A stretch of 64,000 bases of DNA, taken from IMG/VR virus record IMGVR_UViG_3300048927_000140, positions 1 to 64,000 of that record; one strand, 5' to 3'. The DNA is from a virus. This document shows positions 90-18,913 of this stretch, one piece after another. How positions within the stretch are numbered: the stretch's first letter is position 1; every line of letters starts with the position of its first letter. The translations under genes were made by a program, and so were the position numbers. The notes beneath the pieces were generated by a model. The model saw only the letters and a list, made by a program, of their open reading frames with translations. It ran no database searches and was not told the DNA's origin.

Positions 90-425
90 ATGGCTTGGCC
101 TAAACCTAAGGGCGCTGTCGTTCGCAAGGCAGCCTCATTCCGTCGCACCGCGAGCGGCGTCACCAAGATACGCAGGGATGGCTACTCCACCCAGAACGGC
201 ATGAGCGTCAAGAACAGCTGGTGGGAGATCAGTGCTAAGGTGCGCAAGCGCTCCAAAGGCCTGTGCGAGGACCACGCGTCGAGGGGTCTCAAGGTCAAGG
301 GTGTTGAGGTTCACCACATCGTGCCGCTGTCCAAAGGCGGCCGCACCGTGCTGTCGAATTTAATTCACCTGTGTGAGGACTGCCACGACCGCCGACACAA
401 TCATTTATATCGGAGTCGCTCATGA
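90..425 (+). CDS. HNH endonuclease, small
   Basis: A 111-residue protein with a basic N-terminus and a C-terminal HNH fold. Visible motifs are a Cys (GLCEDH), the HNH core VHHIVPLSKGG, the Asn of LSNLIHLC and the final CEDCHDRRH, so both the metal-binding His/Asn/His set and a structural zinc site are present. HNH nucleases of this size are common in phages, either as free-standing homing nucleases or as helpers near packaging genes. The terminase is not in view, so its role here is open. Its TGA overlaps the next ATG (ATGA), showing co-translation with the tagged metallopeptidase. Confidence 0.85.
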   Translation: MAWPKPKGAVVRKAASFRRTASGVTKIRRDGYSTQNGMSVKNSWWEISAKVRKRSKGLCEDHASRGLKVKGVEVHHIVPLSKGGRTVLSNLIHLCEDCHDRRHNHLYRSRS

Positions 426-1021
426 CAATCAAGATTAGGGCAGCACAACGACTACTAGCTTCCGCATGGCACGGAAAAATAAAGATGGAGTTGCCCACAG
501 ATATTGACGCAGTTGTCCGTGATACCATGAATCGCCTTGCTAAAGATTACCCTGTGTTGTCGGCCATCGAAATTCGTCCTGGTGATGCAGAGGTCATGGA
601 CGCAAGTGGTTCGTTGGCCACAAAAGCTCACGACGCTATATATCTGCATCCGCATATCTGGCTAGATCACGGCAGATTGAAGAAACACGCCAAGGACTGG
701 GACGAGGCCATGGTTGATCCGTCTATCGCAGGTCTAATCATTCACGAAGCAGGACATATTTTAGATGGCCTTGTTCTTCGGAGACTGGGAGCCAAGAAGT
801 ATAACGCCCTTCTTGGCTCTTTCATTCGGGACTTCACTGGCATCTACAACGATGAGGCTGCGAGTGCCTATGGACAAGAAAACATATTTGAGTTCGTGGC
901 CGAGGCGTTCACCGCGTTCTACCAAAATAAGCACGCGCTTCGTTTGGAGAATGATCTAACCAGAAAATCAATGGACGTATCGAAACGACTCTGGGCAGAA
1001 TTTAATAAGGTACTCAAATGA
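422..1021 (+). CDS. Tagged HExxH zinc metallopeptidase (ATLF-like)
   Basis: A 199-residue protein in two parts. Residues 1-14 are the recurrent peptide MTIKIRAAQRLLAS. The body carries a gluzincin signature: HEAGH at 108-112 (His108, Glu109, His112) and a downstream acidic helix EFVAEAF at 157-163 that can supply the third zinc ligand. That spacing and the E-F-x-A-E-A-F pattern recall anthrax-lethal-factor-like (ATLF) peptidases. I infer a zinc protease packaged in the head through its N-terminal tag and perhaps ejected into the host. It overlaps both neighbours by ATGA. A peptidase-fold protein without activity is the alternative. Confidence 0.72.
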   Translation: MTIKIRAAQRLLASAWHGKIKMELPTDIDAVVRDTMNRLAKDYPVLSAIEIRPGDAEVMDASGSLATKAHDAIYLHPHIWLDHGRLKKHAKDWDEAMVDPSIAGLIIHEAGHILDGLVLRRLGAKKYNALLGSFIRDFTGIYNDEAASAYGQENIFEFVAEAFTAFYQNKHALRLENDLTRKSMDVSKRLWAEFNKVLK

Positions 1022-1347
1022 AAATCAATGCAGCACAACGCCTGATGGCCAGCTCGGACCCTCAGTGGTTTCTGGATCTGAGCGATGAACAGCAGCGCCA
1101 GTATCTGGACGATCACCCAGGATCCAAGCTGCATCCAAGTGCGCAGGAGCACAAAGACAAGGGCCAGATTAAGCCCCACGGCATGAGCAAGGCCGAACGT
1201 CAAAAGGACATTGAGTTCCTGAAGCGTCAGATTCAATACGCCAGGGACGATATCGCTGAGCTGGAGGCCGATGGCGAAGACGCGACGAAGGAGCGCAAGG
1301 TGCTCAAGGACAGCTTGGACGAGTTGCGCGATCTTCGGAAAGGATAG
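1018..1347 (+). CDS. Tagged small protein, charged C-terminal half
   Basis: A 109-residue protein that begins with the shared peptide MKINAAQRLMASS. The body is hydrophilic. From about residue 60 it is strongly charged and predicted helical (EFLKRQIQYARDDIAELEAD), probably a coiled coil. No enzyme motif is visible. A 16-base stretch at 1025-1040 is identical to 9632-9647 in another tagged gene, so the tag is conserved at DNA level between them. The start overlaps the peptidase stop (ATGA). Function unknown; cargo of the prohead is my inference from the tag. Confidence 0.75.
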   Translation: MKINAAQRLMASSDPQWFLDLSDEQQRQYLDDHPGSKLHPSAQEHKDKGQIKPHGMSKAERQKDIEFLKRQIQYARDDIAELEADGEDATKERKVLKDSLDELRDLRKG

Positions 1348-1349
1348 CC

Positions 1350-1559
1350 ATGATCCAAGTCAATGCCACACAGCGTCTGCTGAGCCAGATGAGCAATCAG
1401 GAGAAGATCACGCACTACTCCAAGATGCTCCAACGGGTAAAGCACCGCCTACACCAGCTGGACCCAGACCGACAACCGCGCACAACCGAGCGTTACCTCA
1501 AATGGGCTGTTCGCTTGGAGAAGCGTATTGCCGGCCTCAAATCACGTCACCGTTACTAA
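1350..1559 (+). CDS. Tagged very small basic protein
   Basis: A 69-residue, Lys/Arg-rich protein beginning with MIQVNATQRLLSQ, a variant of the shared N-terminal peptide. The remainder is helical and basic (KMLQRVKHRLHQL, WAVRLEKRIAGLK), which would suit DNA or scaffold contact inside a head. The ATG follows the previous stop by 2 bases. No known family recognised. Confidence 0.7.
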   Translation: MIQVNATQRLLSQMSNQEKITHYSKMLQRVKHRLHQLDPDRQPRTTERYLKWAVRLEKRIAGLKSRHRY

Positions 1560-1568
1560 GGACATACC

Positions 1569-2021
1569 ATGGACCAACAAGCACTGCAAGAACTCATCGG
1601 CCTCTTTCTGAAGGTCAATCCACAACCGTCCGATCAACAGTTCCATGCCTTTGCCGAGGCCATCGGCATCGACAAGGAAACGCTGGAGTCCATCGCATAC
1701 GCAATGCTGGGCGAAGCCGAGGACCTTCTGGAGGATCCGGTCTCCGCATCGCTGATCCATCAGGTGAATGCGAATGCGCGCCTGGGCGCCGCCACCGTGA
1801 CTGCCGATCAGGAGGAGGTGTTGGACGATCCAACTATCGATCCTGACGACCTGAGCCTCAGCGATGTGGCCTTGAACGACGGCGATCCAACCGACGACGA
1901 TCTGGGCCAGCAAGAAGAAGCGCTGGACGACGGCTATACGGAAGACGACGTTGGCGTGGGCCTGACCAACAACGTACAGGACGTGCTGAACGACGACGGC
2001 GTTATCGATCGGGAGCTCTAA
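1569..2021 (+). CDS. Acidic protein with an internal copy of the tag motif
   Basis: A 150-residue protein. Residues 1-60 are a hydrophobic/helical segment, residues 65-74 read QVNANARLGA (a match to the tag consensus), and residues 80-150 are extremely acidic (DDPTIDPDDLSLSDVAL, DDDLGQQEEALDD). If a protease acted near the internal motif, the acidic half would be released, much as T4 core proteins are trimmed during head maturation. This is inference. It lies 9 bases after the previous gene. Acidic low-complexity composition suits a prohead core component or DNA mimic. Confidence 0.68.
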   Translation: MDQQALQELIGLFLKVNPQPSDQQFHAFAEAIGIDKETLESIAYAMLGEAEDLLEDPVSASLIHQVNANARLGAATVTADQEEVLDDPTIDPDDLSLSDVALNDGDPTDDDLGQQEEALDDGYTEDDVGVGLTNNVQDVLNDDGVIDREL

Positions 2022-2022
2022 C

Positions 2023-2709
2023 ATGTGGTCCGGCCTGGGAATCGATAAGCGAGCCTTGCAGAGTCGGCCTACGCCGGACACCTACCCGTCGGTGTTCAGC
2101 CCGAACTGCAAGGTCCACTGGGACGCCGTGATAAACGGACTACCCCAAGAAGGTGAGGCTCAAGCTCTGTGGGCCACAGCCATACACGACTTCGTGGTCG
2201 CGTGTCGTGCAGCCAACACCAGTCCGTTCGCGGGCCTCCAGCAGACACGCAACGATCAGATCGTTAGTGCTCTGCGCAATTCACGTCGGGCCGTGCTCAA
2301 GGTGCTGGACAATTCGTATGCGTTCAAGATACTAACCTTGAAAGCGGTGAGGCGTAGCTGCACCGTCACCGACAAAGGCTTTGTTCTGCGCGTCGAAGGC
2401 GAGATCATGGCCGTCGATCCAACGGTCACCCATTGGTTGTTGAAGAAACCGTGGCCTGCCTTCCAGCTGAAAAACAAAGGCGTATATCGGAAGCAGTTGG
2501 ATCATCATACCCAGATGATCTTCTACAACGCTGGCGCGAACCTACCTCTGCGTTGGCACATCGGATACGAGATCGCACTGGACCTGAGGCCGGCGCTGCC
2601 CAATCCACTGGCATCCGACGCCGAGCAGGAGCAGTTCATACTCAAGGTGCTGTGGGCACACGTCATGGCTGACACGAGGACCCGCGAGTGGCATAGGCGC
2701 AAGCTCTAG
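2023..2709 (+). CDS. Unknown protein ending the first operon
   Basis: A 228-residue soluble protein with mixed alpha/beta character and no motif I recognise. It starts 1 base after the previous stop, and its TAG overlaps an AGTAAATA element, followed by a strong terminator at 2730. It is therefore the last gene of the operon. A Trp/His-rich C-terminus (LPLRWHIGYEIAL, REWHRRKL) is the only notable feature. Confidence 0.72.
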   Translation: MWSGLGIDKRALQSRPTPDTYPSVFSPNCKVHWDAVINGLPQEGEAQALWATAIHDFVVACRAANTSPFAGLQQTRNDQIVSALRNSRRAVLKVLDNSYAFKILTLKAVRRSCTVTDKGFVLRVEGEIMAVDPTVTHWLLKKPWPAFQLKNKGVYRKQLDHHTQMIFYNAGANLPLRWHIGYEIALDLRPALPNPLASDAEQEQFILKVLWAHVMADTRTREWHRRKL

Positions 2710-2715
2710 TAAATA
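2708..2715 (+). promoter_or_regulatory. AGTAAATA element (plus strand)
   Basis: An exact copy of the recurrent 8-mer, overlapping the TAG of the preceding gene. It is the only plus-strand intergenic copy found. A terminator begins 14 bases downstream, so a transcript starting here would be about 40 nt unless it read through. Possible promoter-like or processing site. Confidence 0.35.
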
Positions 2716-2729
2716 CGTGTTGAAGGAGA

Positions 2730-2763
2730 GGAGAGACAGTTCCAAGGCTGTCTCTCCTTTTGT
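2730..2763 (+). terminator. Rho-independent terminator
   Basis: A 10-bp perfect stem (GGAGAGACAG / CTGTCTCTCC), 8-base loop, followed by TTTTGT. It closes the tagged-protein operon and isolates the helicase gene. Confidence 0.85.
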
Positions 2764-2830
2764 CGTTTGACCCGACGCCACAAAACTCAATTTCACGGTT
2801 GACGTACCCCAAACAACCAAAGGAAATCCC

Positions 2831-5800
2831 ATGACCAACAAACTGCGAAGCACCACGAACCTGGTCGTTCCTCAACACCTGCGCCTCAAGAGCGCAGATC
2901 GTCGGAAGCGATTCATGTACGTGTACACCGCGGCGTACCCGGGCCTTGAACCAGTGTTCATGAACCGCCTGTGGCTCAGCCACTTCTTCCCGCAGATCGC
3001 CAGTGACCCGTCGTTCGGCAAGAATCGTAAGGGCGTGCGTCTGTACGTTCAGGCAGCTGAGAAATACAGCCGTGCCGGCCTGCTCAAGCTCAAGAAGGTG
3101 AACGACACTACGGATCCTCACTTCGTGGTCGCCGTCCCATTGGCCGAGTTCAACCGCTACGATCTCCAGAACTACGTGAACCAGCTCAAGTTCTGGTTCA
3201 CCAACGGCAAAGGCGATCACTCCGAAACCGACAATCGTGCGCAAGCTCTGACCGACGCCCTGAAGTCGAATGCCGAGAACCCAGAGGTTCAGCAACAGCA
3301 AGTGCTGGCCGCGCAGATCATTCCACATCTGGGCCTCGACGCGAACTCGCAGTTGGCCCTGAAGGAATGCTTCTTCGGCCTGCGTCTGCAATACGTCGGC
3401 GGCTTGGCTGTGGTCTTTGCCGACTTCAAAATCGCCAAGGACGAGGCCCAGCAACTCACGTCCACCGACTGGGCGATGATCCGTAACATGGACCTGTATC
3501 CGCTGATGCTCCAGTGGCAGATCAGCCTGTGGGGCTACCGCGACTCGGCACCGACCTCGTCGTTCCCCATGTCGAAAATCAGCAAAACCCTGCCACCGAT
3601 CCACGAGTCGCAGGCTCGCATCAACGAACATGGTCTGTCGGTCGCACCAGATGGTTCTGTGCTCTGGCTGCCGGAGCGGTTGGACAACACCAAGCGCTAC
3701 GAGGACCTGTACTCCCAGGTTGGCGATAAGGGCGACGACACCTTCGGCCTGATCGATATGGGCGAGGCCGGACACGCTGCAACCACTGGCGAGGAGCTCA
3801 AGATCAAGCTGCCGGCCAACATTCCGGTGTTGGTCGACTGGGTGAACAACCGTTTCGCCTACACCCAGGGTAACGGCGTGCTGAAGGTGCAGGACCTGAC
3901 GCGCTTCAAAACGTGCGACGACTCCCACGCGGCCAATCTGCTGAATCACTGGCTCATCGACAGCAAGGACGCCATGATGTTCATGGAGATGGGCAAGTCC
4001 GCTGGCGTGCCTGACGCGCTGTACTTTACCGAGGAAGAGGCCAAGGAGATCGAGGCCAACGACCCGATGACTGCCGGTCGCCTGATTGTCGGCGGCGGCG
4101 TGTCTGTAGAGCAGTATTGGGACACGGCCTATGACTATCATCGTCGCTTTGTCAACGAGAAGGATTTCAAGCTGGCGGATATCAGTATCGAGGGTGACCC
4201 AATCTGGCGTCCGTTCGCACGCTTCATCGAGACCGTGCAGGCCGCCGTGATCTCCAACATGGACGCAGTGAACCAGAAGTTCAGTGTCAGTGGTACGGCG
4301 TCCCGCTTGGGCACCATGACCCTGATCGCCAAGTACGGCAACAACCTGACACAGACGCTGACCAAATCGAACACGATTCGTGCCGCTGCTACCAATCAGG
4401 GTGTGGACCCGAACTGGCGTCCTGAGTCGGTACCCCTGATCATGGACAATCCGGAGCGTCCATTCTCGCTGCTGCCGCACCAAGCGAAGGTGCGCAACAT
4501 CATGAAGGACAGTCCGGACTTCGCCATTCTGCCAGTTCAGGCCGGCGGCGGTAAGACCCCTCTGGCCATCATCGACATTCTGATGGAGATCAAGGCCGGT
4601 CGCAGTGCGCCCTATCTGGTGCTGTGCCCCGCACCTCTGGTACCACAGTACGTGAAAGAGGTCACGTACTTCACCAGCGGTCAGGTGAACTGCATTCCAA
4701 TCGTGTCGGACGTGATCTTCCGTAACGGCTTCGACCGTCTGCAGGAGATGGTGGCAAGTGCACCGCGCAATACCATCGTGATCGTCAACTACGATGTGCT
4801 GCGCAACAAGGCCTACGACGTGTGCTATGGCACGACCAACGTCAAAATCTACCCGGTCATCGAGTTCCTGCGCCAGTTCAACTTCGGCTACGCGATGATG
4901 GACGAATCGCACAACCTGAAGAACGACTCGCAGCGTACCCGTGCAGCCCTCCAGCTGATTGCTGACATTCCTAAGAAGCGTCTGGCGTCCGGTACGATGG
5001 CCCACGACTCGCCGTCCGACCTCGCGCTTCAGGTTGCGATGCTGGACCCAACCCTGTTCGGATCTAGGGAGAAGTTCAACAAGCGCTTTGGCGCCGTTGT
5101 GAAGGGCAACCGCGTTATCGAGTGGAAGCCTGGAGCACAGCAGCAGATCATGAGCATGATCCGCAGTCGTATCGTGGTCGCGAAGGCCATGCGTAAGGAA
5201 TGGGCGGCTCTGCTGCCTATGGCTAAAGAGGACATGCACCTTGTGGAAATGAGCGAGGCGCAGCACTCGGTGTACCAAGCAATCCTCACCGAAGCCTTCG
5301 ACAAGATGCGAGAAGACGCCAAGACTAATCCGGCACTCAAGAAATTCTTCGAGTCGCAGCCTCTGATGCTGGAGAATCCGCAGAAGAACGGCGACGAAGG
5401 CCTCGACGAGGAAGCTGATCAGGAAGCAGAGGACGCGGCCGACGAGAACGCCGGGGAAGACCTCGAGGGTCTGCTGGGCTTCTATCTGGCCCGCTTGGAG
5501 CAGTTCCTGACTGCACCGGGCAAGGACGAGTTGGGTGCACGTCTGCTGCACGGCGATGACCTGCGTAGCCCTAAGGTCAACAAGATCCTGGAACTCATTA
5601 AGATGCACATTGCCCAAGGAATCGAGGGCAAGGTTCTGGTGTTCACCAACTACATCGAGAGCGCGGAGGAAATCTTCGAGGCTGCTGGTCCAGAACTTCA
5701 GGCCTCCGGTATCCTGTACACCGCTGGCGAGAAGGTTGAGGCTGGTGCCGCGTTCGAGACCGACGCGAAGAAGAAGTGGATGGTCGGTGTGGAGAACTCC

Positions 5801-8161: not shown

Positions 8162-8560
8162 ATGGCAACCCCCAAATTCATCGGCAACTGGAGCAGCAGT
8201 GGTTCGCGTGGTGAGCCTCACGAAGGCGTTGGCGTTGCAGGCCAACCTTCGCAAGCAGGTGGGGGTTCCATGACTGGCAAAAGCGGCGATATCGGCTACA
8301 TCCCCATGAGCGCGATATTGCCGTCCGGCGGCCTCAATCAAAGCGTCTTCTTCCAATCGGAAGTTGGCGTCGATATCGACTACACTTTGTGTGGTCTGGG
8401 TCTCGCCACCAGTTCGGAACCCGCAGCGCAAGCTGCCTGCTTGTGGACCGACAGCCAAACCGTGGCCGCAAATGCCATCGTTAAGGCAGACGTCCCGGGC
8501 TTCAACTGCATGCGCGTCACCTTCAACGGTAACGGTACGCTGTACGTAGGAGCGCTGTGA
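8162..8560 (+). CDS. Small protein upstream of prohead protease
   Basis: A 132-residue protein rich in Gly, Ser and Ala, with beta-like hydrophobic strands at the C-terminus (CMRVTFNGNGTLYVGAL). No motif is recognised; the sequence looks structural. It starts 3 bases after the preceding stop, and its TGA overlaps the protease ATG (TGATG), implying translational coupling. A minor virion or core protein is my inference. Confidence 0.72.
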   Translation: MATPKFIGNWSSSGSRGEPHEGVGVAGQPSQAGGGSMTGKSGDIGYIPMSAILPSGGLNQSVFFQSEVGVDIDYTLCGLGLATSSEPAAQAACLWTDSQTVAANAIVKADVPGFNCMRVTFNGNGTLYVGAL

Positions 8561-9279
8561 TGGCTGAAAAAATCATCATTGCTTCCGAGCAGAGCACTCA
8601 GGTCATTGTGCCTGAGTCCAAGGAAGCTGAACAAGCTCTGCAACAGCTGGACTTTGCCACCTGGCTTCCGTACGCAGCGAAGGTCTACGATATCAACCCA
8701 GATATCAGGGCCTACGTTCTGGCCACTATTCCGATCTGCCCTTCGGACATTCCGAATCGCAACGGCCTCGGCTTCCCTCTCAAGGAGCTTCTGGCCTTCC
8801 AGCCACCTCCTGTGGCTCGACAGTCGTACAAGGCCTGGACCGGATGCCCGCTGCACTACGAACACCGCAACGAAATCCATACCGACGCCTACGGCATCAT
8901 TCTGGACACGGCTATGCGCCCAATCAAGGGCTACGGTAACGGTAAGCTGTACAAGGTGATGGGTCTGATCGGCGTGGACCGCACGAAGCATCCGGAGATG
9001 GCCCGCCGCGTGATCGCCGGCGATATCAACACCTACTCGATGGGTGCCTTGGTCGATGCGTTTAGCTGTTCGTACTGCGGTTCGCCTCTGACCAAGAAGC
9101 ACAACTGCGGCCACGTCAATCTCGACCGTGATATCGACTGGAACGAGATTCGCAGCTGGGACAACAAGCGCCACATTGCGTTCCGTAACGCGCACGGCAT
9201 CCAACCAATCGAAACCTCGCTGGTGGAATCGCCGGCCTGGACCACTGCATTGTCTGACGCAGTTCACACGAAGGAGTAG
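8560..9279 (+). CDS. Prohead (capsid maturation) protease, T4 gp21-like
   Basis: A 239-residue serine protease that should cleave scaffold and capsid proteins during head maturation. The family pattern is clear: LHYEH (His99/His102), a VDRT segment at 139-142, and the nucleophile motif YSMGALV with Ser160, followed by a Cys pair motif CSYCG and a CGHV that may form a zinc knuckle. This H-then-S order is typical of herpesvirus-like/gp21 phage proteases. Position just before the scaffold and capsid genes supports it. The ATG at 8560 is preferred over GTG 8557 because GTAGGAG lies 8 bases upstream. It likely processes the tagged proteins too (inference). Confidence 0.88.
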   Translation: MAEKIIIASEQSTQVIVPESKEAEQALQQLDFATWLPYAAKVYDINPDIRAYVLATIPICPSDIPNRNGLGFPLKELLAFQPPPVARQSYKAWTGCPLHYEHRNEIHTDAYGIILDTAMRPIKGYGNGKLYKVMGLIGVDRTKHPEMARRVIAGDINTYSMGALVDAFSCSYCGSPLTKKHNCGHVNLDRDIDWNEIRSWDNKRHIAFRNAHGIQPIETSLVESPAWTTALSDAVHTKE

Positions 9280-9281: not shown

Positions 9282-9620
9282 ATGACCTTTCAAATGAAAG
9301 CGGCGATCCGTCTCATGGCAGCCAAAGGTGCTGCGCCCGGTGAGTCGTTCACGCTGAACTACCTGTATCGCATCTACCACAACCAGAAGCTGCGGAAAGT
9401 GGGGAGTGCTTATGTAGGTGATGTTCCGCAAAACATCGCGGACAAGATGCACATTTTCTTTGACTCCAACGGCTTCAAGAAAGTGGGCAACACCTACAAG
9501 GGTCATGACGAAGAGGTCAAGATGACGCCAGGCCGTCTGGAAGGCTACGTGACTATTGCGGTTAAGACCAGCGGCTCCAACATTGGATCCCAACAAATTC
9601 TGAACCCAAAAGGACGGTAA
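9282..9620 (+). CDS. Tagged small protein with alpha/beta body
   Basis: A 112-residue protein starting MTFQMKAAIRLMAAKG, a divergent copy of the shared peptide. The body (IFFDSNGFKKVGNTYKGHD...YVTIAV) resembles the bodies of two other tagged proteins at 17877 and 18626: a helix ending in a GF step, then a short strand and a final strand. It lies 2 bases after the protease stop, directly between protease and scaffold, as expected of a packaged core protein. No catalytic motif seen. Confidence 0.75.
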   Translation: MTFQMKAAIRLMAAKGAAPGESFTLNYLYRIYHNQKLRKVGSAYVGDVPQNIADKMHIFFDSNGFKKVGNTYKGHDEEVKMTPGRLEGYVTIAVKTSGSNIGSQQILNPKGR

Positions 9621-9621: not shown

Positions 9622-9865
9622 ATGAACAAAGTCAATGCAGCACAACGTCTGGCTGCCGCTTCGTCCGTGAGCAAGCCTATGGAGCGTGGATAACTCCACG
9701 CTCCAGAAGCTGAACAAGGTCAACGACGAGTTACACAAGCAGGCCGCCGCCCTGCAAGGCATCAAGAATAAGTTTGCAGGCGACCCGCATGGTGAAATCG
9801 TCGCGGCCCTGGAGCTTATCGAGCAGGCGCAGACCCGGATCGAAAACGTCATCGACGTGAATTAG
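9622..9865 (+). pseudogene. Tagged small gene broken (or recoded) by a frame change
   Basis: The ATG at 9622 opens frame 1 with MNKVNAAQRLAAASS, a canonical tag, but meets TAA at 9691 after 23 residues. From 9689 a second frame (+1 relative) continues as DNSTLQKLNKVNDELHKQ... to TAG at 9863-9865, a charged helical body like other tagged proteins. Joined, they give about 81 residues. The switch falls inside a perfect hairpin at 9681-9704. Options are a frameshift mutation, a sequencing error, programmed +1 shifting, or a coupled restart at GTG 9686, whose GGAG is only 1 base away and so poor. The frame-1 part alone is too short to be a normal gene. Confidence 0.6.
9681..9704 (+). repeat. Perfect 9-bp hairpin at the frame switch
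   Basis: GGAGCGTGG and CCACGCTCC pair exactly around a 6-base loop (ATAACT) containing the frame-1 stop codon. It is not followed by a T run, so it is not a standard terminator. Confidence 0.75.
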
Positions 9866-9934: not shown

Positions 9935-11521
9935 ATGCCAATCCTGAACGTGGCGCAAGCCAAGAAGAAGGTCGCGGCCTCCAAAGACTCGACCTCGCTG
10001 CATTTCAGCAACGAGACGAGCGCACCCGCTGATGAAGACAGCGGCTTCGAGGTCGAAAACAACATGTCGGTCGATACCCTGATCGATCCTGAAGATTACG
10101 AGCCGGGCGGCAGCACCCACTTCTCCAACGAAGAAGACTCGCATCCAACCCTGGCCTCGGCCAAGAAACCAAAGCGCGCCAAGGTCAGCGCGTCCGATAT
10201 GGACGGCTGCGAAGACGGCGGCAGCACCGTCGATCCTGACACCACCAACGTCGGCACCATTCCGAACGATATCGATCCTGACCAGGGCTACATCGGCTCT
10301 TCGGCTGAAGGCCTGGACATGGGCGACGTTGATCCGGACGAAGACGACGATGTGGACTTCGGCGCCGAAGATGACCCTGACGCCATGATCGACAACACCA
10401 CGTTCCCGAACGACGTGGACGCGTCGGTCGACGAAGAAGGCGGCGACACCCATATGTCGAACGAAGACGAACCCCAAATGGAAGAAGCGGCTGGTGACAC
10501 CATGGACAACAACATGGCAGTTACTCCGCTGGAAGCCGCCGAAGGCGACGACGCCGACTGGGACGCTCCGCCAAGTGGCGACGATGAAGACGTGGCCGAA
10601 GACGATCTGGACGACATGGAAGCCGACGGCGACGTGGTCGAGCCAGAAGACCTGGCCTCGGGTCCTGAGCCTGAAGAAGCCACGACCGGTGAAGACCTGT
10701 CGATTCTGGACGTGGACGAAACTCCAGACGAAGATACCGACGGCGTCGCATTCGCTGCTGCCGGCACCCGTCTGCTGTGCATCAAGGCCAATCGCATCAT
10801 CGCGACCATGACCGGCCGCATGGCAATCGCAAGCGGTCGCAACGACGTGTATCTGACCGACCAGTTCCAAGCCGTCACCGCAATGTCGATCAAAGACAAG
10901 GGCCTGCGCAAAGGCTTGAAGTCGATGGGCTTCGCGCTGGCCACCGTGAGCCTGGCCAAGCAGTCGGTGCTCAAAGCACAAGTCCAGAAGGAAGTGACCA
11001 AGACCACGGCTGCCGTGCGCAAGGTCGCTGCCGAGAAGGACAAGGCGTTCCAGCAGTCGCTGGCAATCGCAAGTGTGGGTATCAACCGCAAGATGTTCAA
11101 GGACGTCGAGAACCCACTGCGTGCCCATCTGGAAGGCGAGTTCCGCCGCATGGGTATCGTGGGCGCCGGCAAGATCCTGGCCCACGCTTTCAACGAGCAC
11201 GGCCCGGCCTACGCCAAGCAGGTGATCGAGTTGGCCAACAAAATCAGCGCCATGCCTGAAGAAGTACGCGACGGCTACGTGGACATGATGGACCTGCAGT
11301 CGGGCGTGATGGACGAGCCTGACGAGGACATGGTGCCTATCGGTGCTGAAGGTGGCGACGAGGACATCGATGACGATGAATTCGAGACCTCCGACTTCGG
11401 CGAAACTATCGAGGCAACCCTGGCCCGCCCAGGCACCAAGATCAAGGCCCATGCCGCAGCCAGCGGTAAGTTCAGCGTCGAAGCCAACCAGATTCTGGCC
11501 GGCACCCGTCCGTTGTTCTAA
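9935..11521 (+). CDS. Probable prohead scaffold/core protein
   Basis: A 528-residue protein lying between protease and capsid genes, where T4 places gp22. Residues 1-14 (MPILNVAQAKKKVAAS region) resemble the shared tag. Residues 20-275 are highly acidic and repetitive (DPEDYEPGG, DPDEDDDVDF, and several copies of HFSNE/HMSNE). Residues 278-300 carry tag-like IKANRIIAT. Residues 300-450 are helical and basic. An acidic stretch follows, then a C-terminus (VEANQILAG). The acidic/helical composition is typical of scaffolds that are degraded during maturation. An internal head protein that remains in the virion is the alternative. Confidence 0.72.
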   Translation: MPILNVAQAKKKVAASKDSTSLHFSNETSAPADEDSGFEVENNMSVDTLIDPEDYEPGGSTHFSNEEDSHPTLASAKKPKRAKVSASDMDGCEDGGSTVDPDTTNVGTIPNDIDPDQGYIGSSAEGLDMGDVDPDEDDDVDFGAEDDPDAMIDNTTFPNDVDASVDEEGGDTHMSNEDEPQMEEAAGDTMDNNMAVTPLEAAEGDDADWDAPPSGDDEDVAEDDLDDMEADGDVVEPEDLASGPEPEEATTGEDLSILDVDETPDEDTDGVAFAAAGTRLLCIKANRIIATMTGRMAIASGRNDVYLTDQFQAVTAMSIKDKGLRKGLKSMGFALATVSLAKQSVLKAQVQKEVTKTTAAVRKVAAEKDKAFQQSLAIASVGINRKMFKDVENPLRAHLEGEFRRMGIVGAGKILAHAFNEHGPAYAKQVIELANKISAMPEEVRDGYVDMMDLQSGVMDEPDEDMVPIGAEGGDEDIDDDEFETSDFGETIEATLARPGTKIKAHAAASGKFSVEANQILAGTRPLF

Positions 11522-11527
11522 GACCAC

Positions 11528-12264: not shown

Positions 12265-12299
12265 GCCACCGCGACAGCATACACTAACAGGAGAAACAA

Positions 12300-13379
12300 A
12301 TGTCGAAAATCAAAGTCAACGCTGCGCGTACCCCAACCGTAGCATCCGAGTACCGTTTCACGGGCTCGAACGAACGCGCAGTCGGCCGTAACGGCGAGAT
12401 CAACGCCTCGTCCAAGCGTGAACTGCTGAACAAGCAGATGGCATTCCTGCAAGCCTCGTCGGACGGCACCCTGGTGACCGACGCCGCTGGCCACAAGCTG
12501 GAAGCCGCCGCCAAGGCCAACCGTGAACTGCTGCTGGCTGCCCAGAACGACGTGAATGTCCATCGTGTGCTCGGCGAGCGCATGGCCGAATCGCTGTACA
12601 TCACCGCGAACCGCCAGGGCTTCATGCGCAAGTATCTGACCAAGATCACCGTGGACCAGGGCACCATCCCACGCTTCCCACTGCGCACCAAGAACGTGAC
12701 CGCCGTGTGGTCGACCTCGCCGACCAAGATCGAAACCCAGATCACGCGCGACAAATGGTACATGCCGCCGGAACTGAGCATCGTCACCCGTCCGTTCGTC
12801 ACCCAGAACGAACTGAACCAGAGCGCCGGCGACGTGCTGCAAGAAAAGTATGTGGAAGCGACCGAAGCCGTGATGGTTGCCGAAGACCGTCTGTGGTACA
12901 ACCAAGTCAACAGCCTGGTCGGCATCGACAACAACCTGACCATCATCCCTGGCCAGCTGACCCCGTACTCGCTGATGCAGGTGCGCAACAACGTCACCCG
13001 CTGGGGCCTGAAAGCACCGCACGTGCTGATCGCCTCCGATATCTACCAGGATATCGTCGGCAACCAGGACTTCTTCACCGCGATCGATCCTGTCGCCCGC
13101 CACGAACTGCTGCTGACCGGCGAGCTGGGCGTGATGTACGGCATGACCATCACCTCCGACGCGTACCGTCACCCTGAACACAAGGTGCTGTCGCAAGGCG
13201 AAATCTTCGTGATCTCGGAAGCGCTGAACCACGGCGCCTACTCGGATCGCGGCGGCATCAACTCGGCTCCGATCGATATCGTGAACGAAAAAGTGCCAGG
13301 CAAGGGCTGGGTCATCCACGAAGAAATCGCCATCTCCGTGGCCAACAGCCGCTCGGTCGCCAAAGCCGTTCGCGTTTAA
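12300..13379 (+). CDS. Major capsid protein
   Basis: A 359-residue protein that I assign as the HK97-fold shell subunit. Evidence: position after protease, scaffold and decoration genes; size; strong AGGAG start context; highly biased codons; and an N-terminal region (about 1-70) rich in Lys/Ala that could be a removable delta domain, followed by soluble alpha/beta sequence ending in IVNEKVPGKGWVIHEEIAI. Its first residues (SKIKVNAARTPTVAS) share I-K-V-N-A-A-R and A-S with the cargo tag. Maturation cleavage by the gp21-like protease is expected from the family but the site cannot be read from sequence. Confidence 0.82.
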   Translation: MSKIKVNAARTPTVASEYRFTGSNERAVGRNGEINASSKRELLNKQMAFLQASSDGTLVTDAAGHKLEAAAKANRELLLAAQNDVNVHRVLGERMAESLYITANRQGFMRKYLTKITVDQGTIPRFPLRTKNVTAVWSTSPTKIETQITRDKWYMPPELSIVTRPFVTQNELNQSAGDVLQEKYVEATEAVMVAEDRLWYNQVNSLVGIDNNLTIIPGQLTPYSLMQVRNNVTRWGLKAPHVLIASDIYQDIVGNQDFFTAIDPVARHELLLTGELGVMYGMTITSDAYRHPEHKVLSQGEIFVISEALNHGAYSDRGGINSAPIDIVNEKVPGKGWVIHEEIAISVANSRSVAKAVRV

Positions 13380-13388
13380 TCAACCGCG

Positions 13389-13412: not shown

Positions 13413-13435
13413 CAATCCAGTCGAAAGGAACAAAC

Positions 13436-13885: not shown

Positions 13886-13894
13886 TACCAACGG

Positions 13895-13926
13895 GGGAGC
13901 CGGTGCTTAATGCTCCGGCTCCCTTG
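13895..13926 (+). terminator. Probable terminator after capsid operon
   Basis: A perfect 9-bp stem (GGGAGCCGG / CCGGCTCCC) with an 11-base loop, followed by TTGTC. It is strong in stem but poor in T run. Confidence 0.65.
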
Positions 13927-13944
13927 TCACGTTTGGGGGCCATA

Positions 13945-14577
13945 ATGCAAATCGTACCGATAGAAACCCAAGTGATGAGTGGCCTTATCAAACGGTTCAC
14001 GCAAGTGTTCCAATGCAAGGCCATCTACACCACAACGCAAGACAAGACGCGCACGCTGGAGCGTCTTCAGGAAGGTAAAGAGTTGGAACTGCCTTTCGCG
14101 TTCCTTACCGTGCAGTCGATGGCCCATAATAAGGACCAACGACAGTCCGCATACCTGAGCCGACGTGGTCTGCCTATAGCAGGTGGACAGGGGCAAGCAT
14201 TTACCTCCCGCCTGGTGCCAGTCAACTTTAGCATCGAGGTTGAATTCCGCACCAATCAGTTCACTGGCATTGAGTCTACCACCGTGATGGGCTATGCCAA
14301 GCGCTGGCTCTTCGCCTACAAGTGCGGGATGCTCAAATTTAATATACAGCATGGCCAGCTGCCTGTGCGCATAGGCGTCACGATGGACGACACGGTGCCT
14401 ACGCCGCCACTGGAGAACAAGGTAGAGAACGATAGCCACTACAAGGTCACGACTAATCTCGTGGTGCATGGTTGGGTATCGGAACCTCAACTTGGAAGTC
14501 AGGGCGTCATTGAAGAAATCGAACTCGAAACAATGTTCGGCGCAGACCAAGGCTTCACATTCGTTCCTTTTGACTAG
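13945..14577 (+). CDS. Putative neck/tail-completion protein
   Basis: A 210-residue protein upstream of the sheath gene. Mixed alpha/beta sequence with no recognised motif. Genes in this position in myoviruses usually encode tail terminator or head-tail joining proteins, which is the basis of the call. The ATG at 13945 follows a GGGGG stretch 4 bases upstream; the frame is open to 13903 but that region is the terminator hairpin, so the shorter start is preferred. Confidence 0.55.
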   Translation: MQIVPIETQVMSGLIKRFTQVFQCKAIYTTTQDKTRTLERLQEGKELELPFAFLTVQSMAHNKDQRQSAYLSRRGLPIAGGQGQAFTSRLVPVNFSIEVEFRTNQFTGIESTTVMGYAKRWLFAYKCGMLKFNIQHGQLPVRIGVTMDDTVPTPPLENKVENDSHYKVTTNLVVHGWVSEPQLGSQGVIEEIELETMFGADQGFTFVPFD

Positions 14578-14586
14578 GAGTATTTT

Positions 14587-14949
14587 ATGGACAAGGTACT
14601 GGTCATTAACTTGACCGCAGTAACCCAGCACGTCGGAGTCATTCACGCGAATGGCGTCAAAGACGACGTGCAGATCGTGCCTCGCAAGCGCGTGGAGCTC
14701 CGCACCGGCATGATCGTCGATCCTGCGTGGCTGGGCCGCAACCCAGACTGCGTACGCGTCGTCAAGCCTCAGGTTCTGACTGCCAACGTGACGGCCAATC
14801 GTAAGCCTGAACAGCAGGCTCCGATTCCAACCACACTGACCGTGGCTGATCTGCAACCGGACGGCGCGCCTGCCGGCCAACTGACTGTCGCAGACCTCGA
14901 TCCTGTGCAAGAGGTCGATGACAAAACCACTGAAGGAGAAGCACAATGA
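14587..14949 (+). CDS. Small protein upstream of sheath, repeated TVADL motif
   Basis: A 120-residue protein. Residues 1-70 look like a beta domain (VLVINLTAVTQHVGVIH, KRVELRTGMIVD). The C-terminus contains two copies of LTVADL separated by about 15 residues, in a Pro/Gln-rich region. Start after TAGGAGTATTTT. The stop overlaps the sheath ATG (ATGA), so the two are co-translated. Function unknown, probably virion-related. Confidence 0.7.
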   Translation: MDKVLVINLTAVTQHVGVIHANGVKDDVQIVPRKRVELRTGMIVDPAWLGRNPDCVRVVKPQVLTANVTANRKPEQQAPIPTTLTVADLQPDGAPAGQLTVADLDPVQEVDDKTTEGEAQ

Positions 14950-16886
14950 CCATTCTCGTTCAGCGCGCCTCCGATGTGCGCGTGCAAGAGATTGACCTGT
15001 CGCAAGTCATCACCTCGGCTTCGACCGCGGTGGGCTGCCAGGTCGTGGTGGCGAAACAAGGCTCTCCGGATCCGAAGTTCTTCACCAACGCAGACGACTA
15101 TCTGCTGGAGTACGGCAATCCGGACGCACAGGTTTCGTTCGACGTGTACTGCGGCCTCGACTTCTTCAAAGAAGGCGACCAGCTGTGGGCCCGTCGCGCT
15201 GTTCACGACGACGCCCTGTATGCCGGCATCTTGATGTACAACACGAACACCAATACCGAACTGATCGGTACGCCGAACGGTGTGAAGAACCCGCTGACGC
15301 CAGACTGGTCGACGCTGGTTCCTGCACCAACCGACGAACCCATCGCGCTGTTCTACCCGCTGCGTGGTCCGGGCTCGTACGCCAAGAACCTGGCCGTGGA
15401 TATCGTGTCCAACAACCTGAATCCGCCAACCAACTTGGCTGGTACTTCGGCGAACACGGGCGGTACTATCGTGGCCGGCATCTACCAGTATCAAGTGTCG
15501 GCTGTGGGTGACGACGGTGAGACTCTGGCTTCCCAGCCAGTGCAGGTGCAAGTTGTAGGCGCTGTGGTTACCGGCGTTATCACCCTGACCTGGGACCCGG
15601 TTCCCCTGGCCAACGGCTACATGATCTACGGCCGTTCGACTGACGGCAATCTCACGGGTCTGATGGACACGATTGGAGCCACCGCCACCACGTGGTCCGA
15701 CCTGGGTCTGATCCCGCCTGACGTGGCGAAGAAGCCGATCACCAGTCCGGCCGATCTGCCGCCTGCGAATCCAACCTTCACCGTCAGCGTCTACGATCTC
15801 GACGAGAGCGTGGACAATCCGGTTGAGCAGTTCGTTTGCACGCTGAGCCCTTACACGGATAGCAGCGGCATCGAGTGCGAGCTGGAAGAGCGCATCAATC
15901 CGTACTCGCAGTACATTCAGGTCACAAACAACACACCGGCCCTGATGACCGTACCGTTCGTTACCTCGGCGGCGCGCAAGTCGATGACCGGCGGCGACAG
16001 CGGCACAGCACCAACCGAGTTCGATGTGGCGCAGGCTTACGGCATCTTCGCCAACAAGCAACTGTATCAGATCAACACGCTGATTAATGGCGGCCACTCG
16101 ACCCCAACGGTACAGCGTGCCATGGACGCCCTGGCGGTGAAGCGCTGGGACTCGCTGGCTTGCTTGGACGTACCCTCGTCGAAGCAGAAGTTCCAGCCGG
16201 CTATCGACTACCGCAAACTGACGCTGAACCTGAACTCGTCGTACTCGGCGCTGTTCTGCCCAGACGTGCTGGAAGCCGACCTCATCAACGGCAAGCAACA
16301 GTACGTGCCGTTCAGTGGATGGGCTGCTGCGCTGTGCGCCCGTACCGACCGCGTTGCCAACCCATCGTTCTCCATCGCGGGCCTGAATCGCGGTCTGGTC
16401 GATGTGTTGAAGACCCGCGAGACCTACGACGATGCGCAGGCGACCGAACTGTTCAAGGCTCAGGTGAACTACACCCGTACCTTCGTCGGCCAGGGCATCG
16501 CGCTGTGGGAGCAACAGACGTTGCAGGCTAAGCAGAGTGCATTGAGCTGGGTCTCGGTACGCCGTATCGTCAACGTGATGAAGACGGCCCTGTACCAGTT
16601 CCTGCTTTACTCGCTGCAAGAGCCGAATGACGACTTCACCGGTCGTCAGATCGTCGGTGCATGCACCCAGTATCTGCAAGGCATCCAAGACGCACGCGGT
16701 ATCTCCAGCTTCAAGGTGATTAGCGATTCGTCGAACAACACGGCAGCCATGTTTAACTCTGGTATTCGTCGGGTTACTGTCATCATCGTGCCTGTGATTC
16801 CGATCCACGAGATCCAGCTCCAGATGGTAATCAGCAAGCAGGGCGTGTCGTTCTCGGAAGCTCTGTCCCAGGTCGGCGGTCAATAA
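14946..16886 (+). CDS. Tail sheath protein with inserted Fn3-like domain
   Basis: A 646-residue contractile sheath subunit. The C-terminal third shows the conserved sheath core (NYTRTFVGQGIALWEQQTL, SVRRIVNVMKTALYQFL, and the final strand ISKQGVSFSEAL). Residues about 177-258 form an inserted fibronectin-III-like domain (YQYQVSAVGDDGETLAS...ITLTWDPVPLANGYMIYGRS). A very similar module is found in the gp6/J-like baseplate protein on the other strand. The next genes are a tagged protein and the tube protein. Sheath function is clear from the family core; the insertion probably decorates the tail surface. Confidence 0.88.
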   Translation: MTILVQRASDVRVQEIDLSQVITSASTAVGCQVVVAKQGSPDPKFFTNADDYLLEYGNPDAQVSFDVYCGLDFFKEGDQLWARRAVHDDALYAGILMYNTNTNTELIGTPNGVKNPLTPDWSTLVPAPTDEPIALFYPLRGPGSYAKNLAVDIVSNNLNPPTNLAGTSANTGGTIVAGIYQYQVSAVGDDGETLASQPVQVQVVGAVVTGVITLTWDPVPLANGYMIYGRSTDGNLTGLMDTIGATATTWSDLGLIPPDVAKKPITSPADLPPANPTFTVSVYDLDESVDNPVEQFVCTLSPYTDSSGIECELEERINPYSQYIQVTNNTPALMTVPFVTSAARKSMTGGDSGTAPTEFDVAQAYGIFANKQLYQINTLINGGHSTPTVQRAMDALAVKRWDSLACLDVPSSKQKFQPAIDYRKLTLNLNSSYSALFCPDVLEADLINGKQQYVPFSGWAAALCARTDRVANPSFSIAGLNRGLVDVLKTRETYDDAQATELFKAQVNYTRTFVGQGIALWEQQTLQAKQSALSWVSVRRIVNVMKTALYQFLLYSLQEPNDDFTGRQIVGACTQYLQGIQDARGISSFKVISDSSNNTAAMFNSGIRRVTVIIVPVIPIHEIQLQMVISKQGVSFSEALSQVGGQ

Positions 16887-16897
16887 TCAATCAACGT

Positions 16898-16916
16898 GGG
16901 TGGGCACCGCCCACCC
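16898..16916 (+). terminator. GC-rich hairpin after sheath gene
   Basis: GGGTGGGC and GCCCACCC pair around a 3-base loop. No T run follows, so it is at best a partial terminator or an mRNA 3'-end stabiliser between sheath and the next genes. Confidence 0.5.
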
Positions 16917-16929
16917 CTAAGGAGAAAAC

Positions 16930-17373
16930 ATGGCAATTCAAATCAACGCATCGGCCCGTCTGGTGGAAGCACAACAAATGGTACGGGCCGCTAAGGCGGA
17001 CGACGCAGGCAAGGTCGTGCTGTGGATACAGAAGGCTCTGGGCTGGAAGGGCAAACGCGTCGGCAAGGCCGGACAGAGCGAAGGCATGGAATTCAAAAAG
17101 AAACTGTCGGGCGCCACCGTGTGGCTGACGGTCACTCTGGACCATACGCAAGAAGGCAGCCCTCTGCACATCGAAGGCGGCACGATGGACACGGCCAATA
17201 AGAAGCTGAAGGTGCAGTGGCACGTCACCGAGAAGACTGGTCGCAAGACCATTCTCGAACTCAAGGACGAGTTGAAGCGCACCATCGGCATGTTCCGTAA
17301 CGTAGACGGTGCGGACGAACTGATCGAAGCAATGACCAAGCTCGTCCGTGCCAAATCCAAAGTGGAGGCCTAA
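16930..17373 (+). CDS. Tagged protein between sheath and tube genes
   Basis: A 147-residue protein beginning MAIQINASARLVEAQ, a member of the shared N-terminal peptide family. The body is basic and alpha/beta (WIQKALGWKGKRVGKAGQ, TVWLTVTLDH, KVQWHVTEKTGRKTI) and ends in two helices. It starts after AAGGAGAAAAC and is followed without a gap by the tube gene. Its place inside the tail operon shows that tagged genes are scattered among late genes and not confined to one island. No known family recognised. Confidence 0.75.
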   Translation: MAIQINASARLVEAQQMVRAAKADDAGKVVLWIQKALGWKGKRVGKAGQSEGMEFKKKLSGATVWLTVTLDHTQEGSPLHIEGGTMDTANKKLKVQWHVTEKTGRKTILELKDELKRTIGMFRNVDGADELIEAMTKLVRAKSKVEA

Positions 17374-17877
17374 ATGCGTACATCGCTGCAAGACGTATTG
17401 AGTCTGCAGGACCCAGCAGCGTCATACAACTTTGACCTGTTCCTGCCGAACATCCCCGGCTCGTCGGATACGCGGGACCTGACGTTCAAGTGCATGACCA
17501 CAGACCTGCCCGGCGTTGCCGTGGACTCGATGGAAGCTGCGCTGCACGGCGTCAAGGTTCCGTTCGCGGGTGCCAAGGTGTTCACCCACACCTTGAACGC
17601 CACGTTTCTGGAGACGGCCGACTGGATGACGCGTGAGAAGTTCCGTCGCTGGAACGAATTCACGCGCTCGTGGAAGAACAACAGCGGTGCGCTGGCTTCT
17701 GCGTACAAGGTCGACAGCCAGATCGTCGTCTACAACGACATTCCAGAGGTCGTTCGTACCACCAACCTGATCGGCCTGTATCTGGAGACCATGAACGAGG
17801 TGGCTCTGGACGGCGGGGCGTCGAACATCGTCACCCTGCAGTGTACCTTCAAGTACACCTACTGGGATGATGTGTGA
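17374..17877 (+). CDS. Tail tube protein, T4 gp19-like
   Basis: A 167-residue protein of the usual tube size. Motifs that fit the gp19/tube family are the N-terminal SYNFDLFLPNIPG, DLTFKCMTTDLPGV, the central FRRWNEFTRSW helix and the terminal TLQCTFKYTYWDDV. Position after the sheath gene is standard for myoviruses. It assembles into the rigid inner tail tube. The stop overlaps the next ATG (TGATG). Confidence 0.88.
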   Translation: MRTSLQDVLSLQDPAASYNFDLFLPNIPGSSDTRDLTFKCMTTDLPGVAVDSMEAALHGVKVPFAGAKVFTHTLNATFLETADWMTREKFRRWNEFTRSWKNNSGALASAYKVDSQIVVYNDIPEVVRTTNLIGLYLETMNEVALDGGASNIVTLQCTFKYTYWDDV

Positions 17878-18176
17878 TGCGCACCCATGCGGCCACGCGC
17901 CTGAACGCCCACAAACTGGAAGCTTCACCTAGTCAAGGCGCTGCTGTTAAAGCGCTGAAACAGATGGGTTTCCATCATCGCAAGATCGAGAAGGACGGGG
18001 ATAGCATTCAAGTGCTGACCTCGAACGACAGAGGAGAAATCTTTCTGACATTGAATAGCGATAGCCTTCAGGCTCTCAAGGCAATGTTTGCCCGTGACGA
18101 AAACCTGCAACTTCACTTCTACACTATGAATGCTGTACAGGTGGGTGTCAGTGTGGCGAGCAAGACGGTTGATTAA
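17877..18176 (+). CDS. Tagged small protein with alpha/beta body
   Basis: A 99-residue protein starting MRTHAATRLNAHKLEAS, a looser match to the shared tag. The body (VKALKQMGFHHRKIEKDGDSIQV) parallels the proteins at 18626 (KALKALGFKGSGDLYEKG) and 9282, so these three look like one small domain family fused to the tag. The ATG at 17877 overlaps the tube stop; a GTG at 17874 is possible. A strong terminator follows. Confidence 0.72.
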   Translation: MRTHAATRLNAHKLEASPSQGAAVKALKQMGFHHRKIEKDGDSIQVLTSNDRGEIFLTLNSDSLQALKAMFARDENLQLHFYTMNAVQVGVSVASKTVD

Positions 18177-18180
18177 CAAC

Positions 18181-18208
18181 TGGGCGGGCTTCGGCTCGCC
18201 CATTTCTT
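18181..18208 (+). terminator. Terminator with UUCG tetraloop
   Basis: A 9-bp stem with one G-U pair closes on C(TTCG)G, a very stable tetraloop, and is followed by ATTTCTTT. It ends the sheath/tube operon. Confidence 0.82.
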
Positions 18209-18221
18209 TATAGGAGGTGAT

Positions 18222-18629
18222 ATGATTCCCGTGCGTCAAACCATCATGTATCAGCATGAGCCGCGTGTCTATGGCGACTGCATGCGAGCCTCAATCGCCT
18301 CCATACTGGAGCTCCCAATAGAAGAAGTGCCGCACTTCCTGCAGCTGGCCGAAGGTCGCGTGTACGAATTTTATGACCTGATCGAAGACTTTCTGATGAC
18401 CAAGGGATATCTGGTGCTGTGGCAACGCAGCATCGCCTACCATTGGCAGCCAGGAGATCCGTCGGTCTATCACTTGATGAGCGGACCTAGTCCTAGACAC
18501 CCAGGTGTCCATCACTCGGTAGTCGGACGTAACGGCGTGCCGTATTTCGATCCTCATCCGGATGGCACTATGCTGGCCGGAGAACCAAACCAGTGGACTT
18601 GTTCATTCATATTAAAGGCTATGCCATGA
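18222..18629 (+). CDS. Predicted papain-like (C39-type) cysteine peptidase
   Basis: A 135-residue protein with a Cys-His-Asp arrangement: GDCMRAS (Cys20) at the start of a helix, HHSVVGRNG (His98), and FDPHPDG (Asp110). Proteins with GxC...PHF...HxVVG...DPHP are found in phages and bacteria as small papain-fold hydrolases. The segment LPIEEVPHF after the Cys helix also fits. Substrate unknown; peptidase or amidase are both possible. Ribosome site TAGGAGGTGAT is strong. Its stop overlaps the next tagged gene (ATGA), so it is co-translated with a presumed packaged protein. Confidence 0.65.
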   Translation: MIPVRQTIMYQHEPRVYGDCMRASIASILELPIEEVPHFLQLAEGRVYEFYDLIEDFLMTKGYLVLWQRSIAYHWQPGDPSVYHLMSGPSPRHPGVHHSVVGRNGVPYFDPHPDGTMLAGEPNQWTCSFILKAMP

Positions 18630-18913
18630 CAATCAAAATTCAGGCGTCGCAGCGACTTGCGGCCGCCAAAAGGGATCCTGTCCTGCAAAAGCTCTGCGAC
18701 GATCTGTGCGACTATGAAGACGACCAGATGTGCGACGTAGACGCCGGCGACGAGATCGAGTTTTATGCGAAGAAGTCCTACTGTGTGAAAGCGCTTAAGG
18801 CCCTTGGTTTTAAGGGCAGTGGCGACTTGTACGAAAAGGGTGATGTGAAGCTGAGCGTCAAGGCGGCTCCGGGTCACTCTGCAAAGAACACCACGTATAT
18901 TCGCGTGGCTTAG
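18626..18913 (+). CDS. Tagged small protein, alpha/beta body
   Basis: A 95-residue protein starting MTIKIQASQRLAAAKRD, one of the clearest tag copies (compare MTIKIRAAQRLLAS at 422). A Cys/Asp-rich segment (LCDDLCDYEDDQMCDVDAGDE) is followed by the body domain KALKALGFKGSGDLYEKGDVKLSV shared with 17877. The ATG at 18626 overlaps the cysteine peptidase stop; longer starts lie inside that gene. Cargo role inferred. Confidence 0.75.
   Translation: MTIKIQASQRLAAAKRDPVLQKLCDDLCDYEDDQMCDVDAGDEIEFYAKKSYCVKALKALGFKGSGDLYEKGDVKLSVKAAPGHSAKNTTYIRVA

Follow-up and report, generated by a model that had tools for sequence, protein, structure and literature searches.

What does a nearly constant peptide do at the start of many otherwise unlike small proteins encoded around the head genes of a giant phage? 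The question is raised by a 64,000-nucleotide stretch of viral DNA (hereafter the window), positions 1 to 64,000 of the IMG/VR record IMGVR_UViG_3300048927_000140 (64,446 bases). The window is a fragment of a jumbo myovirus whose relatives include BcepSauron, a 263-kb Burkholderia cenocepacia phage, and the Achromobacter phage Motura. Its sheath gene shares 76.7% DNA identity with the BcepSauron counterpart, and the capsid proteins compare at 74% identity with BcepSauron, 60% with Motura and about 37% with PaBG. An original prediction, made from the letters of the window, had read the common N-terminal peptide (hereafter the tag) as a packaging signal for cargo loaded into the prohead. Comparison with related sequences led us to a modified form of this reading, to which we assign a probability of about 0.57: the tag would be a short linear docking motif that guides late proteins of many unrelated kinds into the prohead during its assembly.

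The tag opens eight genes in the 422-18913 part of the window. It follows the pattern M-x(1-3)-[IVM]-x-A-[AST]-x-R-L in seven of them and is degenerate in the copy at 17877. All eight starts named in the original prediction were present with the peptides given there; the final alanine of its motif was found in six of eight (serine at 1350, glutamate at 16930). On the plus strand, the tags are MTIKIRAAQRLLA (422..460, score 31.8) of a 199-residue open reading frame (ORF) at 422-1021, MKINAAQRLMA (1018..1050, score 29.6) of a 109-residue ORF at 1018-1347, MIQVNATQRLLS (1350..1385, score 23.3) of a 69-residue ORF at 1350-1559, and MTFQMKAAIRLMA (9282..9320, score 20.4) of a 112-residue ORF at 9282-9620. 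They are followed by MNKVNAAQRLAA (9622..9657, score 22.5) of a 23-codon ORF at 9622-9693, MAIQINASARLVE (16930..16968, score 26.0) of a 147-residue ORF at 16930-17373, the degenerate MRTHAATRLNA (17877..17909, score 13.9) of a 99-residue ORF at 17877-18176, and MTIKIQASQRLAA (18626..18664, score 29.1) of a 95-residue ORF at 18626-18913. The scores come from a matrix trained on the tags of the wider set, that is, on the same tags that it then scored; it gave 13.9-31.8 for the eight tagged genes, at most 0.6 for 17 of the 18 other genes between 90 and 19786, and 9.2 for the remaining one, the major capsid protein. In a six-frame pattern scan of the whole window, matches were confined to the plus strand of the first 19 kb. 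A looser pattern added two matches, at 3625 and 10120, both in antisense ORFs.

The tag is abundant in the relatives, whose records are labelled G001-G006 and G008-G015 where they have no phage name here. The core pattern [IVLMF]xA[ASTV]xR[LIM] had 206 matches, 111 of them with an ATG no more than 8 codons away, in 46 sources comprising the window, two Sarumanvirus stretches and 43 loci around homologous capsid genes. With ATG as the only start counted, the relatives contained 164 tagged ORFs in 100 body clusters; after 15 antisense or overlapping ORFs had been removed by eye, 149 remained in about 86 clusters (100 minus the 14 clusters that contained removed ORFs), in agreement with the prediction that the bodies behind the common tag differ. 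A motif scan over the phage and its relatives, which had been suggested at the outset, was carried out in a set of 32 sources, with 14 of the 46 dropped by hand as near-duplicates and the window limited to 22 kb. The tag proved far commoner than altered motifs: 71 distinct matches had an ATG within 5 codons, compared with 5 for the reversed motif, 5 with the arginine shifted, 4 with alanine changed to leucine, 2 with arginine changed to glutamate, and none with arginine changed to lysine or glutamine or with alanine changed to glycine. The raw N-terminal matches (reversed motif in brackets) were 24 (4) in G001, 23 (2) in G006, 20 (3) in G004, 16 (4) in G002, 11 (5) in G003, 11 (4) in Motura, 10 (1) in G005 and 7 (4) in BcepSauron, and each large record held 6-21 tagged genes after cleaning.

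DNA fetched later (396 kb, eight records) gave a similar picture. There were 52 tags in total, of which 5 fell within stretches already used and 47 were new: 15 in G012, 11 in G011, 10 in G014, 8 in G015 and 4 each in G009 and G013. The controls in these six records gave 2 matches for the reversed motif, 2 for arginine to lysine and 1 for alanine to glycine. G008 and G010 had no strict tag, with 4, 2 and 1 matches of the same three controls in G008. A relaxed pattern applied to longer stretches gave 6 matches in G009, 3 in G008 and none in G010, and one of the G009 matches and all three in G008 were unlike tags. No convincing tags were found in the 41-kb stretches of PhiXhv-12, GR7B, Y3 and Peetri. 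Five Motura-type loci, covering up to 10 kb on each side of the capsid gene, had no strict tag and one unlike match with the relaxed pattern; this null is uninformative, because the strict matches of Motura itself begin 14 kb off. Tags with a residue other than A, S, T or V in the fourth position, several of which occur in Motura, escape the strict pattern.

The consensus of the tag is M-K-[IV]-[KQ]-[IL]-[NEQ]-A-A-x-R-L-x-A-[AST]. In the profile of the 149 ORFs, position -1 is lysine (0.56) or glutamine (0.21), position 0 isoleucine, leucine or valine, position 1 asparagine, glutamate or glutamine, position 2 alanine, position 3 alanine (0.85), position 4 free, position 5 arginine, position 6 leucine (0.97), position 8 alanine (0.68) and position 9 alanine, serine or threonine; positions 0, 2, 3, 5 and 6 were preset by the search pattern, while positions 8 and 9 were free of it. 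In Motura, position 3 can also be arginine, lysine or glutamine. Among 104 tags of eight genomes, the alanine, arginine and leucine are each encoded by 2-6 synonymous codons within a genome (CGC, CGG, CGA, CGT, AGG and AGA for the arginine in G002), and the DNA upstream has, by eye, only a ribosome-site-like AGGA in common. Because the synonymous codons vary, the constraint acts on the peptide rather than on the DNA. The identical bases pointed out in the original prediction (16 at 1025-1040 and 9632-9647, 11 of them at 440-450) are correct, but they are no evidence of conservation at the DNA level.

The tags also have dialects: MKIEAAxRL in G002, mostly MKVKLNAAxRL in G004 and mostly L-N-A-A in G006. 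The first hydrophobic residue was identical in 0.768 of within-genome pairs and 0.286 of between-genome pairs (permutation p 0.0005), and the residue after it agreed in 0.379 and 0.180, respectively (p 0.0005), with the caveat that the genomes are related and the pair counts are therefore not independent. Residues 12-16, downstream of the tag, showed no such difference (p 0.12), and the overall usage of isoleucine and leucine was alike in all genomes compared. Moreover, homologous bodies bear different dialects in different genomes, as seen in the ten families listed. Together with the varied codons, the dialects suggest a trans-acting, co-evolving partner that differs by lineage, and part of the pattern may reflect common descent.

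The tag is separable from the bodies behind it and stands ahead of domains that are complete in themselves. The Pfam scan covered the window proteins and 20 tagged proteins of relatives; the latter comprised four NUDIX proteins, one enzyme of the saccharopine dehydrogenase fold, one DUF3175 protein, two with weak matches below the cut-off and twelve without a match. In the four NUDIX proteins the Pfam domain begins between residues 19 and 32, in a homospermidine-synthase-like enzyme it begins at residue 26, and in another tagged homospermidine synthase the alignment to PDB entry 2ph5 begins at residue 19. Three homologues of the 16930 protein have the tag conserved and differ in the linker behind it, at an overall identity of about 47%. 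In the structure model of this protein, residues 1-19 have a predicted local distance difference test score (pLDDT) below 50 ahead of a folded domain that is mostly confident, so that tag and linker are predicted to be disordered; a fold search with the model gave no match (best E 0.043). The 422-1021 protein has an HExxH zincin motif (HEAGH) with a below-cut-off Pfam match to ATLF at residues 104-172, and no match in the phage collection. The 1350-1559 ORF has a tagged homologue in G001 and, by eye, a similar tagged one in G011. Kinase-like and ADP-ribosyltransferase-like bodies were by-eye impressions that we rejected, with no match in Pfam or NCBIfam and none in PDB for the two tried.

The predicted N-terminal position describes the eight window starts, and it is not strict. 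An internal copy, QVNANARLGA (1761..1790, plus strand, score 14.6), lies at about residue 65 of the window ORF 1569-2021, and internal or C-terminal copies also occur in BcepSauron gp090 and gp093 and in Motura gp172 and gp180. The copy in gp090 is the C-terminal AISAARRLMG, and the N-terminus of this protein resembles, by eye, that of the window ORF 1569-2021. Given such copies, the tag is better described as a docking motif than as a leader in the strict sense. In BcepSauron gp093 (L001:4189-4563) and Motura gp172 (L048:2713-3840), a Cys-rich CGG...C..C stretch precedes the internal copy. A protein with two DUF3175 stretches (L066:1648-2370) resembles two tandem copies fused into one, with an internal tag copy of its own at the start of the latter half. 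The 23-codon ORF 9622-9693 is almost the tag alone, and its TAA overlaps the GTG start of ORF 9686-9865 (GTGGATAA); it may be a tag-only mini-gene, a frameshift or a sequencing error, which are not distinguishable from each other.

The placement of the tagged genes was then compared across the eight large records. The capsid module, with limits set after the tag positions had been seen, was taken to extend from 31 kb upstream of the capsid gene to 13 kb downstream of it, on the same strand of records treated as circular. It held 93 of 104 cleaned tags; 5 were in the fibre module, 3 were next to the portal gene and the remaining 3 lay at other places. Before cleaning, which removed by eye 18 of the 122 matches as antisense or overlapping (3 of these 18 in the capsid module), 96 of the 122 tags were inside the module and 26 outside, compared with 4 and 23 of 27 matches of the reversed motif. 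The original prediction had named as its refutation a peptide equally common in early non-virion proteins; instead, 101 of the 104 tags were in the capsid, portal and fibre modules. In BcepSauron, gp253 is the second gene past the portal gene and gp276 is near a tail fibre gene. In the metabolic stretch of Motura, none of 14 longer genes, hand-picked among 88 annotated, had a tag match.

Homospermidine synthase is a natural control for tag placement. It is tagged in the late modules of G002, G005 and G006, and the Motura enzyme, which adjoins glutathionylspermidine synthase in a metabolic cluster on the other strand, is untagged. Passages of an earlier account (PMC9992855) describe this hss-gss cluster of Motura and do not mention the tag. 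Some late homologues that lack a strict match still have a degenerate form of the tag, as with MTVKLTALTRLLL in G003. A weakly acetyltransferase-like family, in which the tagged or untagged status was read by eye, was rejected as a second natural control, as its untagged homologues adjoin the portal gene. Near 177685 on the minus strand of Motura (NC_049849.1), a tagged ORF, to which ORFs in G003 and G004 are related, lies opposite the annotated gp126/gp127, which may have been assigned to the wrong strand.

The major capsid protein carries part of the tag. Its N-terminus, MSKIKVNAARTPTVASE (12300..12350, plus strand; PHROG 2522, E 1.1e-95), shares K-[IV]-x-[VIL]-x-A-[AST] with the tag, and its score of 9.2 is the highest of the 18 untagged genes listed. 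All 12 aligned capsid proteins start with variants of K-[IV]-[KQS]-[VIL]-x-A-[AST]-[RK]-x-P (one with H for K), followed by A-S-E-[YF] in up to 10 of the 12. Among all ORF N-termini, that of the capsid protein ranked 19th of 594 in G001, 19th of 472 in G002, 15th of 967 in BcepSauron and 23rd of 433 in G006, just under the real tags, and the PaBG capsid protein, which ranked 478th of 868, has no half-tag. From this half-tag, the tag and the capsid arm may recognise the same partner. A structure model of the capsid protein had a mean pLDDT of 35 and was of no use.

These observations can be put together as follows. A partner within the prohead (a core or scaffold protein, the protease, or the inner capsid surface) would have a pocket for the alanine, arginine and leucine of the tag; candidate receptors are proteins of the 9935 and 13436 types, the protease and the capsid protein. 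Tagged cargo would be enclosed during shell formation and delivered into the next host along with the DNA, and it may copy the way in which the capsid arm binds the partner, given the likeness between the N-terminus of the capsid protein and the front half of the tag. The packaging reading of the original prediction thus gains from the peptide-level constraint, the modularity, the location in head and portal modules and the absence from the metabolic-cluster homologue; removal by the protease is unsupported, and the position is not strictly N-terminal. More tentatively, and clearly less probable than not, the tag would be a clade-specific cargo-loading code, in which acquisition of the 12-residue label suffices for the product of a late gene to be packaged, the label mimics the capsid arm and works from either end or from a linker, and the dialect of each lineage matches its receptor and keeps the packaging of co-infecting relatives partly separate.

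Cargo-loading peptides of encapsulins are also short, consist of small and hydrophobic residues and dock unrelated enzymes inside an HK97-fold shell; they are mostly C-terminal, and by description their consensus differs from the tag. In phage T4, the first ten residues of IPIII suffice for head targeting and foreign fusions are packaged (PMC9026906). The capsid-targeting sequence (CTS) of T4 (IPI-III, Alt) resembles the tag as a short N-terminal peptide common to otherwise unlike head cargo, and the tagged genes here are concentrated among head assembly genes. In contrast to the CTS, no protease site was detected in or behind the tag, and the multiplicity of tagged genes per record, the internal or C-terminal copies and the lineage dialects are further differences. 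By analogy with the T4 CTS, targeting to the prohead is the simplest account of the tag; that the tag belongs with the CTS is not established, as it is not strictly N-terminal, its packaging is a prediction and its cleavage is unsupported. In SPN3US, the first 15 residues of gp53 are identical to those of gp54 and cleavage takes place at AxE, and N-terminal propeptides of SPN3US and phiKZ, several of them longer than 100 residues, are thought to carry ejection proteins into the prohead (PMC5694885). The likeness to the tag lies in N-terminal pieces proposed to bring proteins into the prohead, while the tag differs in having about 12 residues and far more unrelated bodies, the known domains of which start at residue 19-32. 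A literature search that covered few subscription journals and preprints found no description of the tag peptide.

Several observations weigh against prohead targeting. No clear cleavage signal was found behind the tag ([AGS]xE at 0.0182 per position vs 0.0155 elsewhere); AxE was at 0.0108 vs 0.0057, but this stretch is Ala-rich. Removal by the prohead protease is thus unsupported by the sequences, and the internal and C-terminal copies are at odds with a simple removable leader. The literature search, thin on subscription journals and preprints, yielded no virion proteome of a tagged phage. PaBG is without the tag (4 N-terminal matches vs 7 of the reversed motif, none with the relaxed pattern), so that its virion proteome table (PMC7412058) is uninformative on tags. 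G008 (178 kb, capsid protein 52% identical) had no convincing tag even with the relaxed pattern, for which its three unlike matches compared with 0-1 for the controls; the tag is therefore not essential to this capsid type, and G008 marks an edge of the tag distribution. The half-tag of the Motura capsid protein is weak (rank 50 of 662), three of the 104 cleaned tags are outside the virion modules, and the acetyltransferase-like family is tagged in G006 and untagged beside the portal gene in G001 and G002. Tags of one genome also agree somewhat more than those of different genomes at the free positions 4 and 7 (0.185 vs 0.109 and 0.184 vs 0.120, both p 0.0005), so shared descent may account for part of the dialects. 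Finally, the tag could serve another late compartment common to late genes.

The last point leads to an unlikely but serious alternative, in which the destination of tagged late proteins lies within the infected cell but not inside the virion, for example a factory for assembly, a compartment built by the phage or a complex of the host. Some of the cargo is metabolic (homospermidine-synthase-like, NUDIX) and would be sensible in the infected cell too, and the position-flexible copies and the three tags outside virion modules fit such a site, whereas the 14 untagged genes of the Motura metabolic strand and the untagged synthase of its metabolic cluster do not. A role in the tail, baseplate or outer decoration would explain the tagged genes that flank the sheath and tube genes and the five in the fibre module. 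We consider it quite improbable, since 93 of 104 cleaned tags are in the module of capsid and protease (where sheath and tube are encoded as well), neither of these two tail proteins is tagged, and the half-tag sits on the capsid protein.

There is very little to be said for a likeness due to shared ancestry or a common 5' regulatory element, with no targeting role of the peptide. The 16 identical bases in one gene pair, the paralogues in some families (23 ORFs in one cluster) and the similarity at positions 4 and 7 agree with it; the roughly 86 body clusters, the varied synonymous codons, the unlike upstream DNA, the internal and C-terminal copies and the homologous bodies with genome-specific dialects argue against it. 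An amphipathic membrane anchor or generic signal, suggested by the alternating hydrophobic and basic residues of the consensus, is hardly credible: lysine does not substitute for arginine (0 vs 71 matches; in the DNA fetched later, 2 vs 52, much as with the other controls), the change of the fixed alanine to glycine gave no matches, and the dialects are genome-specific, which looks like a pocket and not a lipid surface.

If prohead targeting by the tag is true, the head cargo of a whole giant-phage clade, mostly unknown proteins together with NUDIX proteins and homospermidine synthases, could be predicted from sequence alone, and direct tests of what such phages carry and inject, a long-standing question, would become possible. 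The tag would be a second loading peptide, independent of that of T4, and its dialects would offer a route to the receptor through co-variation. Small late "hypothetical" genes may then belong to one delivery system.

The landmark genes of the window are untagged. The head maturation protease (8557..9279, plus strand; PHROG 18299, E 6.6e-76) has a tag score of -14.3. An acidic protein (9935..11521, plus strand, score -7.6) is a candidate scaffold or core protein by its position between protease and capsid, and it matches PHROG 20988, "ATPase", with E 3.4e-18. The sheath and tube genes were assigned by their match to BcepSauron, and both are untagged by the scoring matrix. Of the neighbours named in the original prediction, protease and capsid were thus supported by PHROG profiles and sheath and tube by BcepSauron, while the scaffold at 9935 was supported by position only.

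Some further features were noted around the tagged genes. The segment WFLDLSDEQQRQYLDDHPGSK after the tag at 1018 recurs behind tags in relatives. A W[FW]xxLxxxxQxxYxxEHPxSK segment is often found behind the tag (window 1018-1347, L016:16188, L021:16113, L026:15483, L045:10406 and L118), and BcepSauron gp075, without a PHROG match, has several copies of it. A conserved untagged protein at 18222-18629, with no NCBIfam match, is flanked by two tagged genes and has about 53% identity in several related loci. G001:C1:94587-94877 and W02:C1:209155-209415 each give a second match to the capsid protein, weak (26-32% identity) and in its C-terminal part, and are perhaps paralogues.

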